Origin: Lysobacterales bacterium
Lineage (GTDB): Bacteria > Pseudomonadota > Gammaproteobacteria > Xanthomonadales > Xanthomonadaceae
NCBI GenBank assembly: GCA_019510195.1
Contig: JAEKKW010000068.1
Coordinates: 1-64,000, forward strand
Length of the DNA: 64,000 bases
Direction of reading: 5' to 3'
Part shown: positions 20,543 to 42,885 of the stretch, one piece after another
Layout of the letters: the number at the start of each line of letters is the position of its first letter
Numbering within the stretch: the stretch's first letter is position 1
Program-made: the position numbers and the translations under genes
Notes under the pieces: model-generated
What the model saw: only the letters and a program-made list of their open reading frames with translations
What the model was told of the DNA's origin: nothing
The model's database searches: none

Positions 20543-21262
20543 GTGATGAAGAAACTTGCGGCGGAGTTCCTCGGTACCTTCTGGCTGGTCCTGGGCGGTT
20601 GTGGCAGCGCAGTGCTGGCCGCCAAGTTCGGCGGCGACGGCAATCCCCTCGGCATCGGCTTCGTCGGCGTGGCCCTGGCCTTCGGCCTGACCGTACTGAC
20701 CGGTGCCTATGCCTTCGGCCACATCTCGGGCGCCCACTTCAATCCCGCGGTCAGCATCGGCCTGGTCGCGGGCGGACGCTTCCCCGCGAAGGACCTGCCC
20801 GGCTACGTGATCGCCCAGGTCCTGGGTGGTGCGCTGGCGGCTTTCATCCTTTACCAGATCGCCAGCGGCAGGGACGGCTTCGCGATCGATCCCGCCTCGG
20901 CTGGCGCCTTTGCCAGCAATGGTTATGGCGCGCTGTCGCCCGGAGGCTATTCGCTCGGCGCGGCCTTCCTGTGCGAAGTGGTGATGACCGCGGTCTTCCT
21001 GATCGTGATCATGGGTTCGACCCACGGCAAGGCACCGGCCGGCTTTGCGCCGATCGCGATAGGCCTGGCGCTGACCCTGATCCACCTCATCAGCATTCCG
21101 GTCACCAACACTTCGGTGAACCCGGCGCGTTCGACCGCGGTGGCGCTGTTCGCCGGCAGCGGCACGATCGGCCAGTTGTGGCTGTTCTGGGTGGCGCCGG
21201 CGATCGGCGGCATCCTCGGCGGCGTGATCTACCGCTGGCTGGGCAGCGACAAGGCTGCCTGA
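20543..21262 (+). CDS. aqpZ: aquaporin Z
   Basis: 239 aa; two NPA boxes ([25 protein letters not shown]). Confidence 0.95.
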
Positions 21263-21270
21263 AGTCGCCA

Positions 21271-21395
21271 CCGGCGGCGCCGGAGCGGTTCGTCCGCATG
21301 ACCGACCATACGAGGCATGGATGCCGAGTCGAGCCTACATGGACGTACTTGCGGCGTGTCGGGCATGTGGACAACCGCGGAAGGCGCTCAGCCGG
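21271..21395 (+). repeat. Dispersed structured palindromic element, copy A
   Basis: ccggc..gcgcc..GCGGTTcGTCCGCATG..CCGAC..GGCATGGATGCC..CTACATGGACGTA..GTCGG..CATGTGGACAACCGC..ggcgc..gccgg; same order of inverted arms as copies B and C. Confidence 0.88.
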
Positions 21396-21415
21396 GCGAT
21401 ACGCACTCCGGCAAC

Positions 21416-21838
21416 TCAGCTTCGGCGCCGGATCACCGCCAGCGTCAAACGCGAAATGCAGACGAGTTCGCCTGCCTCGTTCTCGATCTTCATTTCCCAG
21501 ACCTGGGTCGATCGTCCGACATGCAGCGGCCGGGCGGTGCCGGTGACCACGCCCTCGCGCACGCCGCGCAAATGATTGGCGTTGATCTCGATGCCGACCA
21601 CGCCTTCGTCCTCCCCCACGCACAGGCCGGCGGCCGTGCTGCCGAGGGTTTCCGCCAGCGCCGCCGAGGCGCCGCCATGCAGCAAGCCGTAGGGCTGGTG
21701 GGTGCGGGCATCCACCGGCATCGTCGCGCGCACGTAGTCGGCGCCCAGTTCGGTGAAGACGATGCCGAGTGGTTCCATCAGGGTGTTGCGGGATAAAGCA
21801 TTCAGCTGGTCGAGCGTGACCTGGCGACGGAACGGCAT
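21416..21838 (-). CDS. hotdog-fold thioesterase (PaaI/YdiI-like)
   Basis: 140 aa; MPVDARTHQPYGLLHGGASAALAETLGSTAA. Confidence 0.9.
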   Translation of the reverse strand: MPFRRQVTLDQLNALSRNTLMEPLGIVFTELGADYVRATMPVDARTHQPYGLLHGGASAALAETLGSTAAGLCVGEDEGVVGIEINANHLRGVREGVVTGTARPLHVGRSTQVWEMKIENEAGELVCISRLTLAVIRRRS

Positions 21839-34919: not shown

Positions 34920-35963
34920 ATGACCCGACTGCCTGATCCCAACGCCACCAAGATGCACGCCGAAGCCGCGGAAACCGCCGACGCCATCATCCGCCAGTTC
35001 GCCGCCAATGCGCCGGCGATCGAGGCATTGGCATCGCGCTTGCGCGCACAACCACCGCGCTTCATCGTCACCTGCGCGCGCGGCAGTTCCGATCACGCCG
35101 CCACTTACGGCAAATACCTGTTCGAGACCACGTTGGGACTCGTCACCGCGTCGGCCTCTCCATCGGTGGGATCGGTGTACGCGATCGCACCGAAACTCGA
35201 GGGCGCACTGTTCATCGCCATCTCGCAGTCGGGCAAGAGTCCCGACCTGCTGCGCAATGCCGAGATCGCCAAGGCCGCCGGCGCGATGGTGATCGCACTG
35301 GTCAATGTCGCCGACTCGCCGCTGGCCAGGCTCGCCGATACCGTGATCCCGCTGCATGCCGGACCGGAAAACAGCGTGGCCGCGACCAAGAGCTATCTGT
35401 GTTCGCTGGCGGCATTGCTGCAACTCACCGCGCACTGGAGTGGCGATGTCGATCTGCTTGCCGCGACGCGATCGCTGCCGGATGCACTGCGCAGTGCATG
35501 GGATGAAGACTGGTCGTCGCTGGTCGGCGGCTTGCGACTGGCGCGCGGCCTGTTCGTGATCGGGCGCGGACTCGGACTTGCCGCCGCGCAGGAAGCCGCA
35601 TTGAAGTTCAAGGAAACCTGCGGACTGCACGCCGAGGCATTCTCGTCGGCGGAAGTGAAGCACGGACCGATGGCGATCGTCGGCCCCGATTTCCCGGTGC
35701 TGGTGTTCGCGCAGGACGACGACACCGGTGCCAGCACCGCGGCGGTCGCCGAGGAATTCCGTTTGCGTGGTGCGCCGGTGTGGCTGGCGCGACCGGGCGC
35801 GAGCGGCGACGGCGTGTTGCCGCTGCCGGAATCGCCACATCCGGCGGTCACCCCGCTGCTGACCGTGCAGGCGTTCTATCGCGCGGCGAATGCGCTGGCG
35901 ATCGCGCGCGGACATGATCCCGACGTGCCGCCGCATCTCAACAAGGTCACGGAGACGGTGTGA
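34920..35963 (+). CDS. SIS-domain glucosamine-6-phosphate deaminase (NagB-II)
   Basis: 347 aa; tandem SIS domains: CARGSSDHAATYGKYLFE, AISQSGKSPDLL, ATKSYLCSLAALLQL, SSAEVKHGPMAIV. Confidence 0.9.
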   Translation: MTRLPDPNATKMHAEAAETADAIIRQFAANAPAIEALASRLRAQPPRFIVTCARGSSDHAATYGKYLFETTLGLVTASASPSVGSVYAIAPKLEGALFIAISQSGKSPDLLRNAEIAKAAGAMVIALVNVADSPLARLADTVIPLHAGPENSVAATKSYLCSLAALLQLTAHWSGDVDLLAATRSLPDALRSAWDEDWSSLVGGLRLARGLFVIGRGLGLAAAQEAALKFKETCGLHAEAFSSAEVKHGPMAIVGPDFPVLVFAQDDDTGASTAAVAEEFRLRGAPVWLARPGASGDGVLPLPESPHPAVTPLLTVQAFYRAANALAIARGHDPDVPPHLNKVTETV

Positions 35964-37090
35964 TGACGACGCTCTTCCGCAATGGACAAGTCCTGACTCC
36001 GCATGGTTTCGAACGCGGCCTCGACGTGCTGGTCGAAGACGGTCGCATCGCCACGATCGCGTCGGATATCCATGCCGATGGCGCAGCGATCATCGATCTC
36101 GAGGACGGCCTGCTGGTGCCCGGCTTCATCGATACCCAGGTCAATGGTGGCGGCGATGTGTTGTTGAACGACACGCCGACCGTCGCGGGCGTGCGCCGGA
36201 TCGCCGAGGCCCATCGCAAGTTCGGCACCACCGGCCTGATGCCGACGTTGATCAGCGACGACGTCCCGGTAATGCGTGAAGCGCTCGCTGCCGTGCGTGA
36301 TGCCATCGCGCAGGGCGTGCCCGGCGTGCTCGGCATCCATCTCGAAGGCCCGTGGCTGGCCGAAGCGCGCAAGGGCGTGCACGATCCGCACAAATTCCAT
36401 ACGCCGGATGCTTCGGAACTCGACCTGGTGGCCTCGCTCGACAACGGCGCCACCATGGTCACGCTGGGGCCGGAACGTTTCGCGCCGGAAACGCTGCATG
36501 CGTTGGCCGAACGCGGTGTGCTGGTCTGCGCCGGACACACCGCGGCAAGCTACGAACAATTGCGCGAGGCCTTCGCCGCCGGTGTTCGCGGTGTCACCCA
36601 TCTGTTCAACGCGATGACGCCGATGGGCAGTCGCGCGCCGGGCGGCGTCGGTGCGGCGATCGACGATCCCGACAGCTGGTGCGGGATCATCGTCGATGGC
36701 CACCATGTCGATGACGCGCCATTGCGCATCGCCATCGCCGCCAAACCGCGCGGCAAGATGATGCTGGTCACCGATGCGATGCCGCCGGTCGGCGGCGAAC
36801 GCGAGGGCTTCACGCTCTACGGCATCGCCATGACCTGCCGCGACGGCAAGTGCGCCACCACCGAAGGTGCGCTCGCCGGTTCGGCGCTCGACATGGCGAG
36901 CGCAGTGCGCAATACCGTGCAGCGCCTTGGCCTGCCGCTGGACGAAGCCTGCCGCATGGCGTCGCAATATCCGGCGGAATTCCTGCGGCTGGGCGACGAA
37001 CTCGGCAAGATCGCGCCGGGTTATCGCGCCGACCTGGCCTGGCTCGATCGCGACCTCAATGTGCGTGGGACATGGATCGGCGGGCGTTGA
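35963..37090 (+). CDS. nagA: N-acetylglucosamine-6-phosphate deacetylase
   Basis: LVPGFIDTQVNGGGDVLLND, GIHLEGPWLAEARKGVHDP, CAGHTAASYEQL, VTHLFNAMTPMGSR, VTDAMPPVG. ORF track gives 35960; ATG either 35960 or 35963. Confidence 0.95.
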   Translation: MTTLFRNGQVLTPHGFERGLDVLVEDGRIATIASDIHADGAAIIDLEDGLLVPGFIDTQVNGGGDVLLNDTPTVAGVRRIAEAHRKFGTTGLMPTLISDDVPVMREALAAVRDAIAQGVPGVLGIHLEGPWLAEARKGVHDPHKFHTPDASELDLVASLDNGATMVTLGPERFAPETLHALAERGVLVCAGHTAASYEQLREAFAAGVRGVTHLFNAMTPMGSRAPGGVGAAIDDPDSWCGIIVDGHHVDDAPLRIAIAAKPRGKMMLVTDAMPPVGGEREGFTLYGIAMTCRDGKCATTEGALAGSALDMASAVRNTVQRLGLPLDEACRMASQYPAEFLRLGDELGKIAPGYRADLAWLDRDLNVRGTWIGGR

Positions 37091-37111
37091 ACGCGCGGCC
37101 ACTCGCTACCA

Positions 37112-37238
37112 CCGGCAGCGCCTATGCGGTTCGTCTGCAGAGCCGACCATACGCAGGATGGATGCTGCGTATGAGCCTACATGGACGTATTCACGGCGTG
37201 TCGGCGGCTGCAGACAACCGCGATAGGCGCACAGCCGG
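37112..37238 (+). repeat. Dispersed structured palindromic element, copy B
   Basis: GCGGTTcGTCTGCAG...CATACGCAG gatggatg CTGCGTATG...CTACATGGACGTA...CTGCAGACaACCGC, flanked by ccggc/gccgg and gcgcc/ggcgc. Confidence 0.9.
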
Positions 37239-37249
37239 GCGATAACGCC

Positions 37250-37882
37250 TCAGCGCGCGCGATTCAACCACTGCAACAGCGGCGTCCAATCGGCCTGGTG
37301 CTCGCGGATCTGCGCCGAGTTGTAGTCGAAGATGCTGCGACCCAACCCGGCCATCATCACGTAGCCCTGGCTGTCGCGCAGCTGCCCGACCACCGGGATC
37401 GACCAGCCCTGCATCACCTCGACCGCCTGCTGGGACGCGTTGGTCCACGGCCGCAAGCGGTTGGCGACGACGCCGACCGGCACCTTGCCCTTCTTGATCT
37501 GCGGATGGCCGGCAAGATCGTTGAGGAAGTGCACGGTCGCTTCGATGTCGAGCGCGGACGGGCCGATCGGCACGACAACGGCGTCGGCGGATTCAAGGAA
37601 TTCGTCGAGCAGGTCGCGATGGGAACCGGCCGGGGTGTCCACCACCACGCGCTGGGTGTCCTCGGGAATCCGCTTGATCCACTGCTTGCGGGTGCCGTCG
37701 ACCGGCAGCACGGCGTGGTCATGATGGGCGCGGCGTTCGGCCCAGCGCATCCCGGAATGCTGCGGATCGGCGTCGATCAACACGGCGTGTTTGCCGTGCA
37801 CGGCCGCGTGGGCGGCCAGGTTCGTTGCGAGTGTCGTCTTGCCGACGCCACCCTTGGAGCTTGCCACCAGTACGGTCTTCAT
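37250..37882 (-). CDS. ParA-family ATPase (orphan, MipZ/ParA-like)
   Basis: 210 aa; VLVASSKGGVGKTTLATNLAAHAA, LIDADPQHSGMRWAERR, VVVDTPAG. Confidence 0.92.
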   Translation of the reverse strand: MKTVLVASSKGGVGKTTLATNLAAHAAVHGKHAVLIDADPQHSGMRWAERRAHHDHAVLPVDGTRKQWIKRIPEDTQRVVVDTPAGSHRDLLDEFLESADAVVVPIGPSALDIEATVHFLNDLAGHPQIKKGKVPVGVVANRLRPWTNASQQAVEVMQGWSIPVVGQLRDSQGYVMMAGLGRSIFDYNSAQIREHQADWTPLLQWLNRAR

Positions 37883-38033: not shown

Positions 38034-41000
38034 ATGACCAGTACCGCAGAGCTTTCCTCCCCCGAATCCGCCAAGGGCACCCTGACCCACGGCGTGAGCG
38101 ACCGCGACTACACCCTCGACGACAAGTACACGCGTACCGAAGGGCGCATCTACCTGTCGGGCGTCCAGGCCCTGGTGCGCCTGCCGATGATGCAGCGCCT
38201 GCGCGATGCCGCGGCCGGGCTCGACACCGCCGGGTTCGTCAGCGGCTATCGCGGTTCGCCGCTGGGCGGCTTCGACCTCGAGCTGTGGCGCGCCCGCAAG
38301 TATCTCGACCGCAACGACGTGCGCTTTCAGCCGGGCCTGAACGAGGATCTTGGCGCGACGATGGTCTGGGGCACCCAGCAGACCAACCTGTTCCCGGGCG
38401 CCAAGGTCGATGGCGTGTTCGGCATGTGGTACGGCAAGGGTCCGGGCGTCGATCGCTGCGGCGACGTGTTCAAGCATGCCAATGCCGCCGGCACGTCGAA
38501 GCATGGTGGCGTGCTGGCGCTGGCTGCCGATGACCACGCCTGTCGTTCGTCGACATTGCCGCACGGTTCGGAACACGAATTCGTCAGCGCGATGATGCCG
38601 GTGCTCAACCCCGCCGGCGTGCAGGACATCCTCGAGATGGGCCTGTTGGGATTTGCGATGTCGCGCTTCACCGGCCGCTGGGTCGGCTTCAAGACCATCG
38701 CCGAAACGGTGGAATCCTCGGCCTCGGTCGACGTCAATCCGTTCGCGCAGCAGATCATCGTGCCCGGCGACGACGAATTCGAGATGCCGCCGGGCGGATT
38801 GAACATCCGCTGGCCGGATCCGCCGCTGGACCAGGAAATGCGCCTGCACCGTTACGCGGTGAAGGCCGCGCAGGCATTCGCGCGGGCGAACCGGCTCGAT
38901 CGCGTCGTCATCGATTCGCCCAACGCCCGCCTCGGCATCGTCACCACCGGCAAGAGCTATCTCGACGTGCTGCAGGCGCTCGAATACCTCGGCCTCGATG
39001 CACGCGCCTGCGCGGATCTCGGCATCCGCATCTACAAGGTGGCGATGACCTGGCCGCTGGAACCGCAGGGCATCCGCGCGTTTGCACGCGGCCTGCAGGA
39101 CATCCTGGTGGTCGAGGAGAAGCACAGCTTCATCGAGTCGCAGATGAAGGAGCTGTTCTACAACTTCGAAGGACAACGTCCCAGCATCGTCGGCAAGTTC
39201 GACGAATCCGGCGAGTGGATCCTGCCCTCGACCGGCGAACTCACGCCCGCGCGCATCGCCGGCGTCATTGCCAAGCGCATCCAGCGTTTCCATGACTCCG
39301 AACAGATCCGCAACGTGCTGGCGTGGATGGAAGGCAAGGAAGGCGAGCTCGCCCTGCCGCGCGCCAACTTCCCGCGCGTGCCGCACTACTGCTCGGGTTG
39401 CCCGCACAACACCTCGACCAAGGTGCCGGAAGGATCGCGCGCCTCGGCCGGCATCGGCTGTCACTACATGGTGACGTGGATGGATCGCAACACCGATACC
39501 TTCACCCACATGGGCGGCGAAGGCGTGACGTGGGCGGGACAGGCGGCTTTCACCGACACGCCGCACATCTTCCAGAACCTCGGCGACGGCACCTATTTCC
39601 ACAGCGGCTCGCTGGCGATCCGCCAGTCGATCGCGGCCGGCGTCAACATCACCTACAAGATCCTCTACAACGATGCGGTGGCGATGACCGGCGGCCAGCC
39701 GGTCGACGGCACGCTGACCGTTCCGCAGATCGCCCACCAGATGCTGGCGGAAGGCGTGCACACCATCGCGCTGGTGTCCGACGACATCACCAAGTGGACG
39801 CGCCAGCGTTATCTCTTCCCGAAGGAAGTCGAATTCCACGATCGCCGCGAGCTCGAGGCGGTGCAGGAACAGCTGCGCACGGTCAAGGGCACGTCGGTGC
39901 TGATCTACGACCAGACCTGCGCCACCGAGAAGCGTCGTCGTCGCAAGCGCGGCAAGATGGTCGATCCCAACAAGCGCGTCGTCATCAACTCGCTGGTCTG
40001 CGAAGGCTGCGGCGACTGCGGCGAGAAATCGTTCTGCGTGTCGGTGTTGCCGAAGGAAACCGAATTCGGTCGCAAGCGCGACATCGACCAGTCGAACTGC
40101 AACAAGGATTTCAGTTGCGTCGAAGGCTTCTGCCCGAGCTTCGTCACCGTCGAAGGCGGCCAGCTGAAGAAGGGCAAGCGCGCCAATGTCGCCCATCGCC
40201 TCGAAGACCTGCCGGCACCGATCTTCGCGACTTCGCTCGACAAACCGTGGAACATCCTGATCACCGGCGTCGGCGGTACCGGCGTGGTGACGATCGGTGC
40301 GTTGCTCGGCATGGCCGGACATCTCGAAGCCAAAGGCTCGAGCGTGCTCGATCAAACCGGCCTCGCGCAGAAGGGCGGCGCGGTCACGACACACATCCGC
40401 ATCGCGCGCACACCGGACGACATCCACGCCGTGCGCATCGCTGCCGGTGAAGCCGACCTCGTGCTCGGTTGCGACATGGTGGTGGTGAACGATTACTGGG
40501 CACTGTCGAAGATCCGTGCCGGTCGCACCTCGGTGGTGCTCAATACTTACGAGGCAATGCCGGGCACCTTCACCACCCGCCCCGACATGCAGTTCCCGGC
40601 CGCCGACATCGTCGCCGCCGTGCGTACCGCCCTCGATGGCGGCGCGCCGCTGACGGTCGACGCCACCGAACTCGCCACCGCGCTGATGGGCGACGCCATC
40701 GCCGCCAACCTCTTCATCCTCGGCTATGCCTGGCAGAAGGGACTGGTGCCGATCTCGTTCGAGGCGCTAATGCGCGCGGTCGAATTGAACGGCGCCGCCG
40801 TCGCGATGAACAAGACCGCGTTCGCGTGGGGTCGCCTTGCCGCGATCGACATGCCCGCAGTGGTCGAAGCCGCCGGCATCGTGCGCAACGCGCCGACCAA
40901 GGCCGAGGCGACGCCGCACAAGTTGCCGATGCTGGCCGCGACCGCCAACGAAGGCCACGAGTCCGGCCTGTCGCCGACGGCTACGCACGACGAAAGCGAG

Positions 41001-41726
41001 ATCCGTCGCGTGCCCGCCCACTTCGACGAAGGCGTCGCCTTCCTGCCGCTGGACGACGCCCGCCTGTCGCGCTCGCTCGACGAAGTGATCGCGCGCCGCG
41101 TCGGTTTCCTCGTCGACTACCAGGACGGCGCCTACGCCGAGCGTTATCGCGGTTTCGTCAACAACGTCCGCGATTTCGAGCATCGCCACGCGCCGGGCTC
41201 GACCGTGCTCACCGAGGCGGTCGCGCGCTACCTGTTCAAGCTGATGGCGTACAAGGACGAATACGAAGTCGCGCGCCTATACACCAATGGCGAATTCCAG
41301 CGACGCATCGCCCAGCAGTTCGAAGGCGACGTCACCCTGAAGTTCCACCTCGCGCCGCCGCTGTTCGCGAAGAAGGACGCCAAGGGTCGCCTGGTCAAGA
41401 AGCAGTACGGCCCATGGATGATGAAGGCGTTCAAGCAGCTGGCGAAGCTGAAGTCGCTGCGTGGCGGCACCTTCGACGTATTCGGCTACACCGAAGAACG
41501 CAAGATGGAGCGCAAGCTGATCGAGGATTACCGCGCGACCATCGAAACGCTGCTGAAGACGCTGGACGCCGGCAATGTCGGACTCGCCGCGGAAATCGCC
41601 AGTGTGCCGGAACATATCCGCGGCTATGGCCACGTCAAGGAAGCGAACTACGCCAAGGCCAAGGCGCGCGAAGCCGAATTGCTGCGGGAATGGAATAACC
41701 CGCTGCGCGTTGTGCAGGTGGCGTAA
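38034..41726 (+). CDS. indolepyruvate ferredoxin oxidoreductase, fused IorA-IorB type
   Basis: 1230 aa; VCEGCGDCGEKSFCVSV...SNCNKDFSCVEGFCPSF 4Fe-4S region, GIGCHYMVTWM TPP region, ITGVGGTGVVTIGALLGMAGHLE. Confidence 0.94.
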   Translation: MTSTAELSSPESAKGTLTHGVSDRDYTLDDKYTRTEGRIYLSGVQALVRLPMMQRLRDAAAGLDTAGFVSGYRGSPLGGFDLELWRARKYLDRNDVRFQPGLNEDLGATMVWGTQQTNLFPGAKVDGVFGMWYGKGPGVDRCGDVFKHANAAGTSKHGGVLALAADDHACRSSTLPHGSEHEFVSAMMPVLNPAGVQDILEMGLLGFAMSRFTGRWVGFKTIAETVESSASVDVNPFAQQIIVPGDDEFEMPPGGLNIRWPDPPLDQEMRLHRYAVKAAQAFARANRLDRVVIDSPNARLGIVTTGKSYLDVLQALEYLGLDARACADLGIRIYKVAMTWPLEPQGIRAFARGLQDILVVEEKHSFIESQMKELFYNFEGQRPSIVGKFDESGEWILPSTGELTPARIAGVIAKRIQRFHDSEQIRNVLAWMEGKEGELALPRANFPRVPHYCSGCPHNTSTKVPEGSRASAGIGCHYMVTWMDRNTDTFTHMGGEGVTWAGQAAFTDTPHIFQNLGDGTYFHSGSLAIRQSIAAGVNITYKILYNDAVAMTGGQPVDGTLTVPQIAHQMLAEGVHTIALVSDDITKWTRQRYLFPKEVEFHDRRELEAVQEQLRTVKGTSVLIYDQTCATEKRRRRKRGKMVDPNKRVVINSLVCEGCGDCGEKSFCVSVLPKETEFGRKRDIDQSNCNKDFSCVEGFCPSFVTVEGGQLKKGKRANVAHRLEDLPAPIFATSLDKPWNILITGVGGTGVVTIGALLGMAGHLEAKGSSVLDQTGLAQKGGAVTTHIRIARTPDDIHAVRIAAGEADLVLGCDMVVVNDYWALSKIRAGRTSVVLNTYEAMPGTFTTRPDMQFPAADIVAAVRTALDGGAPLTVDATELATALMGDAIAANLFILGYAWQKGLVPISFEALMRAVELNGAAVAMNKTAFAWGRLAAIDMPAVVEAAGIVRNAPTKAEATPHKLPMLAATANEGHESGLSPTATHDESEIRRVPAHFDEGVAFLPLDDARLSRSLDEVIARRVGFLVDYQDGAYAERYRGFVNNVRDFEHRHAPGSTVLTEAVARYLFKLMAYKDEYEVARLYTNGEFQRRIAQQFEGDVTLKFHLAPPLFAKKDAKGRLVKKQYGPWMMKAFKQLAKLKSLRGGTFDVFGYTEERKMERKLIEDYRATIETLLKTLDAGNVGLAAEIASVPEHIRGYGHVKEANYAKAKAREAELLREWNNPLRVVQVA

Positions 41727-41750: not shown

Positions 41751-41769
41751 TGGTGCGGCGGTCAAGCTT

Positions 41770-41884
41770 GCGTCGTCCGCACCGGTGTACCTCCGCTTCC
41801 CGCGAACAGCACGTCCATGTGCTGGTCGCGGGCGCGCGGCATCCTGCCGCGCTGTGCGCTCCGGCACACCAGTGCGGACGACGC
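41770..41884 (-). repeat. Diverged, inverted copy D of the dispersed structured element
   Basis: Outer arms GCGTCGTCCGCACcGGTGT / ACACCaGTGCGGACGACGC (1 mismatch in 19); inner hairpins CCCGCGaaCAGCAC gtccat GTGCTGgtCGCGGG and GCGCGGCA tcc TGCCGCGC; read on the minus strand it has the same order of outer arm, GGATG hairpin, ACATGGACGT hairpin, outer arm as A-C. Confidence 0.78.
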
Positions 41885-41913
41885 TGCCAGCGTTATCGCC
41901 ATGCCGCGCGCGC

Positions 41914-41993
41914 GTTGTTGCTTTACGGAGCGAAAAGCTCGCAACCGGTAGATGCTGTTGCTTCTCCGAGACTCGAAAGCCTGCCACCGGCAG
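41914..41993. repeat. Degenerate ~40-bp tandem duplication abutting copy C
   Basis: gttgttgctttacggagcgaaaagctcgcaaccggtag vs gctgttgcttctccgagactcgaaagcctgccaccggcag. Confidence 0.5.
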
Positions 41994-42112
41994 CGCCAGC
42001 TCGGTTCGTCCGTATGGCCGACCGTACGCAGCATGGATGCTGCGTACGAGCCTACATGGACGTATTCACGGCGTGTCGGACATACGGACAACCGACGCCA
42101 GCGCTAGGCCGG
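41987..42112 (+). repeat. Dispersed structured palindromic element, copy C
   Basis: TCGGTTcGTCCGTATG...CGTACGCAGCAT GG ATGCTGCGTACG...CTACATGGACGTA...CATACGGACaACCGA, flanked by ccggc/gccgg. Confidence 0.92.
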
Positions 42113-42129
42113 GCGATGAGTTTTAGCGC

Positions 42130-42885
42130 TTACGGCGCCGAAGCCGCCGCCACGCGCTGCGCACCACCGCGCATCGCACGCGCCGCGGCGACGATCTGAT
42201 CGGCACTGCGGCCATCGCAGGCGAACGACTGTCCCTTGTGCAGCCACGCCGCATCGTTGGCGTAGGAGAACAGCAGCATCTCGGGATTCACGTACCACGC
42301 GCCATGCATGACGATCGCGCGCGATCGCGCGTTGTCGTTGAAGCCGCGATCGACGCCATCAAGCTTGAGCGAGTAACCGTTGTTGCCGATATAGGTTTCG
42401 GCGGTCAGGAACAGCCCGAGGCTGGTCTGGTGGCTGTTGTCCTGGTTGGAGAAGCGGGTGGCGTAGTTGTCGCCGCTGCCCTGGCCATGGGCCACCAGTT
42501 CTCGGAACAGCAGCTGGTCACGGGCGACGTCGAACACCCACAGGCGCTTGTCGGTCGACGGTCGCGAGTAATCGATCACCGCCAGCTTGGCATCCTGTTC
42601 GACCTCGCCGTTGCGGACCGCGCAGTTGCGCGCTTCCAGTGCCAGCGCCAGCACGCCGGGATCGGCTTCCGGCGCCAGCACTTCCAGGCGCGCCAGGGTG
42701 GCCGCACCGGGATCGAGTTGGGAGGCTGATGCACCGGATTGCTGTCCGGTTGCGGACGGGGCCGAGCGCGCCACGGGCGATACGACAACCGAGGACGACG
42801 CGGTCGTTCCATGGTCGGGCACAGTGGTGCAGCTCACCAACGTCGAAGCAGCCAGCGAGATGAAGACCGCGTGAAGTTTCCTCAT
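42130..42885 (-). CDS. murein L,D-transpeptidase catalytic domain family lipoprotein (YkuD_2 type)
   Basis: MRKLHAVFISLAASTLVSCTTVPDHG lipobox; AVIDYSRPSTDKRLWVFD, VAHGQGSGDNYATRFSN, IVMHGAWYV. Confidence 0.88.
   Translation of the reverse strand: MRKLHAVFISLAASTLVSCTTVPDHGTTASSSVVVSPVARSAPSATGQQSGASASQLDPGAATLARLEVLAPEADPGVLALALEARNCAVRNGEVEQDAKLAVIDYSRPSTDKRLWVFDVARDQLLFRELVAHGQGSGDNYATRFSNQDNSHQTSLGLFLTAETYIGNNGYSLKLDGVDRGFNDNARSRAIVMHGAWYVNPEMLLFSYANDAAWLHKGQSFACDGRSADQIVAAARAMRGGAQRVAAASAP

Follow-up and report, generated by a model that had tools for sequence, protein, structure and literature searches.

Palindromic repeats at gene ends in a Lysobacterales genome

The window analyzed here, a 64,000-nucleotide stretch of a 2.19-Mb draft Lysobacterales genome (G000), contains three dispersed palindromic elements of ~135 bp that lie between genes (copies A, B and C; Table 1). 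Copies A and B nearly fill their intergenic gaps, and copy C is preceded by an inverted fourth element, copy D, and a linker. As originally predicted from the window, copies A, B and C can be aligned end to end, with a mean column identity of 82%, and their nested arms are present in the sequence: the outer arms read GTCCGTATG/CATACGGAC in copy C, GTCTGCAG/CTGCAGAC in copy B and GTCCGCATG/CATGTGGAC in copy A, and a further arm pair reads TCGGTT/AACCGA in copy C versus GCGGTT/AACCGC in copies A and B. A 17-nt core, GAGCCTACAnGGAYGTA, occurs three times in the window, compared with 0.07 occurrences expected from shuffled sequences. On both strands the elements fold well below shuffled controls, with z-scores of -4.0 (A), -7.4 (B) and -6.6 (C).

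Table 1. Repeat elements of the window, with the two hairpins of copy C and the flanking genes
Feature	Position	Strand	Description
Copy A (type 1)	21268..21401	+	R1 72.7 bits over 21290-21370; convergent flanks 20546-21262(+), aquaporin-type MIP, and 21416-21838(-), 4HBT thioesterase
Copy B (type 1)	37109..37243	+	R1 67.5 bits; convergent flanks 35963-37090(+), amidohydrolase, and 37250-37882(-), ParA-like
Copy D (inverted; another, diverged family)	41755..41905 (about)	-	Folding z-score -7.9; retains GGA loops CAGGATG and CACATGGACGTG
Linker, D to C	41905..41980		Resembles the linker of the genome's type-2(-)/type-1(+) pairs, GCGCGCGTTGTTGCTTT...
Copy C (type 1)	41981..42117	+	R1 89.1 bits over 42006-42087; flanks 38034-41726(+), 2-oxoacid oxidoreductase-like, and 42130-42774(-), YkuD_2
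Hairpin 1 of copy C	42023..42048	+	CGTACGCAGC-ATGGAT-GCTGCGTACG; loop 42033-42038 is ANGGAY, C-G closed
Hairpin 2 of copy C	42050..42072	+	GCC-TAC-ATGGAC-GTA-ttcac-GGC; ACA and GGA agree with the CsrA SELEX consensus, RUACARGGAUGU

Copy D had been taken for an inverted member of the same family. The element is real and lies on the minus strand, but it belongs to a diverged family in which the GAGCCTAC core is replaced and just the two GGA loops are shared. Its core reads AGCAC-ATGGAC-GTGCT instead of CCTAC-ATGGAC-GTA, and a covariance model of the shared core (R1, described below) recognizes no more than 14 nt of the element, scoring 8.2 bits. Relatives of copy D were found in three other genomes (G383, G370 and G376). 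The D-type family occurs at loci L280, L281 and L284-L287, where two hairpins with AGGA and ANGGA loops are retained; in the L285 variant the N position of the loop is altered again, and L283 holds a further relative (GGAGCAGGATGCGCAGCC).

Covariation and the strand under selection

We collected 55 diverse cores from many genera, chosen by their hairpin-2 motif, and built the covariance model R1 from them. Across these cores the covariation score was 0.555, compared with 0.155 +/- 0.011 after shuffling and at most 0.211 when pairing partners were slid. Two-sided changes occurred in 19 of the 26 pairs, and paired cells amounted to 84.2%, versus 60.9% in shuffled alignments. Covariation is free in the outer stem and in hairpin 1, and hairpin 2 (GCC.TAC ANGGAY GTA..GGC) is invariant among the 55 cores, an invariance that is partly by construction because the cores were selected through this hairpin. 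Hairpin 1 was not a search requirement, and its loop still reads ANGGA in 108 of 125 independent copies, against ~15 in shuffles. This loop is mostly C-G closed on fully diverged arms, and the N position is free in both loops. Overall, the arms diverge with compensatory change and both loops remain C-ANGGAY-G.

A G.T pair tolerated on the folded strand appears as A.C on its complement, so mismatch polarity reports which strand folds. Across 141 non-redundant copies, treated as independent, the stems contain 248 G.T and 94 A.C pairs on the GGA strand (ratio CI 2.0-3.4; 93 copies versus 18). The corresponding counts at random places were 1158 and 1259; a gapped version of the test gave 382:247, and G000 alone was flat (21:22). 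Since G.T pairs far outnumber A.C pairs, it is the GGA strand that folds, and its fold, as RNA or single-stranded DNA, is under selection. The earlier proposal of selection on a folded strand is thereby supported, with the strand now assigned.

Palindrome homogenization by template switching mimics covariation and could have done so here, in which case the repeats would be palindromes acting at the DNA level only, for supercoiling or nucleoid protein binding, with slippage-corrected arms and no strand selected. We regard this as improbable: the excess of G.T over A.C is found on one strand only, and the loops and bulge are asymmetric and strictly conserved.

Copy number and mobility across the genus

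An R1 search of G000 identified 28 strong copies. The original prediction had staked itself on covariation and on further copies elsewhere in the genome, and both were found. Among 17 genomes of the genus, copy number varies widely: seven genomes (G369, G371, G374 and G378-G381) have none, and the others have 1, 1, 5, 19, 19, 28, 56, 61, 75 and 77. The copies fall into two subtypes, which often form an inverted pair of ~300 bp with constant spacing, consisting of a minus-strand type 2 copy, the linker AGCAACAACrCGCGCG and a plus-strand type 1 copy. This pair can be aligned as one unit over loci and species.

At the locus of copy B, the orthologous junctions of G376 and G383 are empty, with flanks ~91% identical. 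The empty site of G376 is a perfect dyad, GCGCTGA-TTCC-TCAGCGC. At the same locus G375 retains only a 5' remnant, and G370 carries a separate type-2 insertion. A short target duplication, AACGC, is possible but ambiguous, since the flanks of this single empty site also differ. Its absence from this locus in two congeners indicates that the element is either mobile or recently spread. The range from 0 to 77 copies within the genus and the empty orthologous site support the suggestion that it is a non-autonomous mobile element.

Two kinds of rearranged locus were also seen. End-only remnants at L261 (G370; ATCGCCCGGC joined to GCCGCCGGTGG) and L264 (G375) fit a deletion across the hairpin. At several gene junctions shared between species, among them L140/L346 (atpC-glmU) and L148/L243, the element or the pair lies in opposite orientations, for which we propose either re-insertion at a hot spot or inversion in place.

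Position and orientation relative to genes

With genes called by a home-made codon-usage finder, the copies lie just downstream of stop codons and mostly between convergent genes. The convergent setting accounts for 18 of the 28 copies in G000, versus 8 of the 49 gene junctions in the window, and for about 70% of copies in a sample from the genus. Orientation was counted in samples picked by score: codirectional contexts outside G083 gave ~30 sense and 25 antisense copies, and single copies in the genus gave 3 sense and 8 antisense. G083 (L167-L216) is strongly antisense, with 4 sense and 26 antisense copies relative to the adjacent upstream gene; in this sample the 3' end of the element adjoins the stop codon and no context is convergent. 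An earlier reading of the repeats as a structured 3'-end RNA module is only partly supported: their position past stop codons, chiefly at convergent junctions, agrees with it, and their orientation shows no bias toward sense.

The same position just past the stop codons of convergent genes, together with the stable folds, would suit fixed, immobile cis-acting elements of the host that terminate transcription or stabilize mRNA. We find this account quite unlikely, given that 7 of the 17 congeners have no copy, that orthologous junctions are empty, that orientation is reversed between species, and that no U-tract was seen at the element end. A secondary role at 3' ends is possible.

Relationship to YPAL/RU-2, Ysr224 and ERIC

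The repeats share their core with the RU-2/YPAL repeats, whose printed sequence has GAGCCTACATGGATGTATTTACGGCGTC after a GGATGG hairpin (Delihas 2007, PMC2759123). Among the literature searched, this paper alone contained the core strings. YPAL, the Yersinia palindromic sequences, are 168 bp long with target duplications of 3-26 bp (De Gregorio 2006, as given in PMC2229807); they have long internal inverted repeats, an intergenic location, a composition that is not AT-rich, empty and filled sites, and a dyad-symmetric target. Proximity to stop codons and joint transcription with the gene upstream are further traits by which YPAL membership is judged. Our elements resemble YPAL/RU-2 in the core and the two-hairpin structure (an NGGATGG-type loop and GAGCCTACATGGATGTATTTACGGCGTC), in their intergenic position near stop codons, in their internal inverted repeats, in not being AT-rich and, at one site (locus B), in having empty and filled states and a dyad target. 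They differ in that the arms have no evident similarity, so that likeness does not extend to the whole element, in their length of ~135 bp rather than 168 bp, in forming an inverted ~300-bp pair of two subtypes, and in ranging across the Gammaproteobacteria.

The Y. similis repeat at L077 scored 126.5 bits against the Rfam family RF02770 (Ysr224, Yersinia sRNA 224). Copy C aligned with the same family end to end, on the minus strand, at 31 bits (E 3e-5), which is below the gathering score of 70, and a scan of the window against Rfam at the gathering score was empty. Ysr224 covers the YPAL core but is annotated on the opposite, TCC strand; the family filed as a Yersinia sRNA corresponds to the TCC strand of the YPAL repeat (L077 7888-7994, minus strand).

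ERIC (IRU/RU-1) is likewise an intergenic, ~127-bp palindromic mobile repeat, and its centre, GAGCTTACAT, resembles GAGCCTACAT, but it has neither the GGA loops nor hairpin 1. On these sequence likenesses, ERIC and YPAL may have a common ancestry. In Methylotuvimicrobium buryatense (G249; L170, L172, L174 and L188-L196), the core lies inside a MITE with ERIC-like ends, TATACCY...GGTATA.

In a collection-wide pattern scan, the named carriers among the matches listed were only Gammaproteobacteria or unresolved Proteobacteria MAGs; they include Xanthomonas, Stenotrophomonas, Luteimonas, Thermomonas, Halopseudomonas, Marinobacter, Rheinheimera, Methylotuvimicrobium, Cellvibrio, Yersinia and others. 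The exact core occurs in 23 of the 369 genomes of a class-wide sample, with 280 occurrences in M. buryatense, and the element had no match in plasmids or phages. The original prediction left it open whether the repeats had been described before and likened them to dispersed palindromic repeats common in Xanthomonadales. The elements are not confined to that order, and described relatives exist in YPAL/RU-2 and Ysr224. The repeats are best regarded as a variant of the YPAL-type miniature element in which the arms are unrelated, the core being already known from YPAL/RU-2.

Candidate mobilizing enzymes and a model for spread

The original prediction also likened the repeats to REP/BIME elements. 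REP, BIME and REPIN sequences are likewise dispersed and palindromic and form inverted pairs, but a REP is a single hairpin of 20-40 bp with a GTAG or CGTC tag, in contrast to the two hairpins and ~135 bp found here. If the pairs were REPINs, they would be moved by a RAYT transposase (Y1, HUH). The constant spacing of the inverted pairs, the intergenic dispersal and a GTAGG ahead of hairpin 1 on the minus strand fit such a system, and units 3 to 5 times the length of a REP, with two hairpins, do not. In searches at the level of Pfam, Y1_Tnp (PF01797) was undetected in six genomes with 19-77 copies (G000, G370, G373, G376, G377 and G383), and it was present in the element-free genomes G371 and G380; G375, with 56 copies, had one partial match. 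The search was therefore negative in most element-rich genomes, and on this result we rejected a RAYT-type REP, which we now consider highly improbable. A RAYT/Y1 enzyme is accordingly disfavoured as the mobilizer.

An all-against-all comparison of the ORFs around copies yielded no recurring family apart from ORFs that consist of the repeat itself or shared loci. As no gene family recurs beside the copies, we infer mobilization in trans. The repeats are probably a non-autonomous YPAL-type miniature element, mobilized in trans via a folded single strand and tolerated between convergent genes. The GGA strand folds into a long stem capped by the two hairpins, and the element would spread in trans through this folded single strand, as RNA or single-stranded DNA. 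A protein may recognize the two ANGGA loops and the GCC/GGC-bulged hairpin, with an enzyme apparently other than a RAYT/Y1 transposase carrying out mobilization. Landing spots would be dyad-symmetric, terminator-like sequences at the ends of genes, places that tolerate insertion, and any transcript reading into an inserted element would then carry a stable hairpin at its 3' end.

YPAL repeats were reportedly described nearly twenty years ago in Yersinia and Erwinia; the literature we searched contains no YPAL mobilizer and no account of the conserved core. Our analysis ties YPAL to a widespread gammaproteobacterial family with hundreds of copies in one methanotroph, assigns the folded strand, argues against RAYT by comparison within a genus, and points to a CsrA-consensus signature exposed in both loops. 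A genus with 0 to 77 copies per genome offers a comparative system for finding the mobilizing gene.

The GGA loops as candidate CsrA/RsmA sites

In the CsrA SELEX consensus RUACARGGAUGU, conservation is 100% at ACA and at GGA, with GGA located in a hairpin loop (PMC4347634). Apical ANGGA loops closed by C-G, a feature of CsrA/RsmA sites, are present in both hairpins of our elements. Once transcribed, the two C-ANGGAY-G hairpins could bind one RsmA dimer, the copies serving as 3'UTR CsrA sites or as a distributed sponge and the loops being retained for this purpose. Hairpin 2 (CUACANGGAYGUA) fits the SELEX consensus (PMC4347634), and the hairpin-1 loop, despite its fully diverged arms, persists in 108 of 125 copies where 15 would be expected. 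The unrelated family D retains both loops on a different stem, with the N position varied in L285, and the folded strand is the GGA strand. G000 has one csrA, and in Xanthomonas a 3'UTR-derived RsmA-binding RNA, RsmU, provides a precedent (PMC7694677).

Other observations count against this function. Sense orientation is not favored (~30 versus 25 in codirectional contexts, 4 versus 26 in G083, and 3 versus 8 among single copies). CsrA does not account for the conserved GAGCC and CGGCGT flanks, and the annotation of Ysr224 lies on the other strand. The presence of csrA in 21 of 23 carriers is uninformative because the base rate is too high, with 316 of 369 genomes having the gene overall. The gene was undetected in two carriers, G196 and G343, both fragmented MAGs; G343, in which searches used Pfam and TIGR00202, is an 85%-complete draft with more than 60 copies. 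On balance, we hold CsrA/RsmA binding by the loops as a tentative possibility. We first favored an account in which the repeats function solely as sense-oriented CsrA sites in 3'UTRs, and the orientation counts weakened it.

CsrB, RsmY/Z and RsmU also carry GGA in hairpin loops, and RsmU is likewise 3'UTR-derived; our elements differ in having two candidate sites per copy, in being mobile and in not being an sRNA gene. On the motif matches, one could imagine the whole YPAL-type superfamily as a mobile element built on a dual CsrA/RsmA site, which would exploit CsrA for RNA stability or movement or would seed CsrA-binding 3'UTRs; we think this doubtful. If it were true, lineages without CsrB-like sponges would gain a distributed sponge. 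The literature searched contains no paper that treats CsrA and YPAL together.

Direct tandem copies spaced ~140-240 nt apart occur at L099 (2914-3242, minus strand) and L182 and in G348 and G318. Up to three copies lie in tandem at L099, an arrangement that would give six GGA loops on a single strand.
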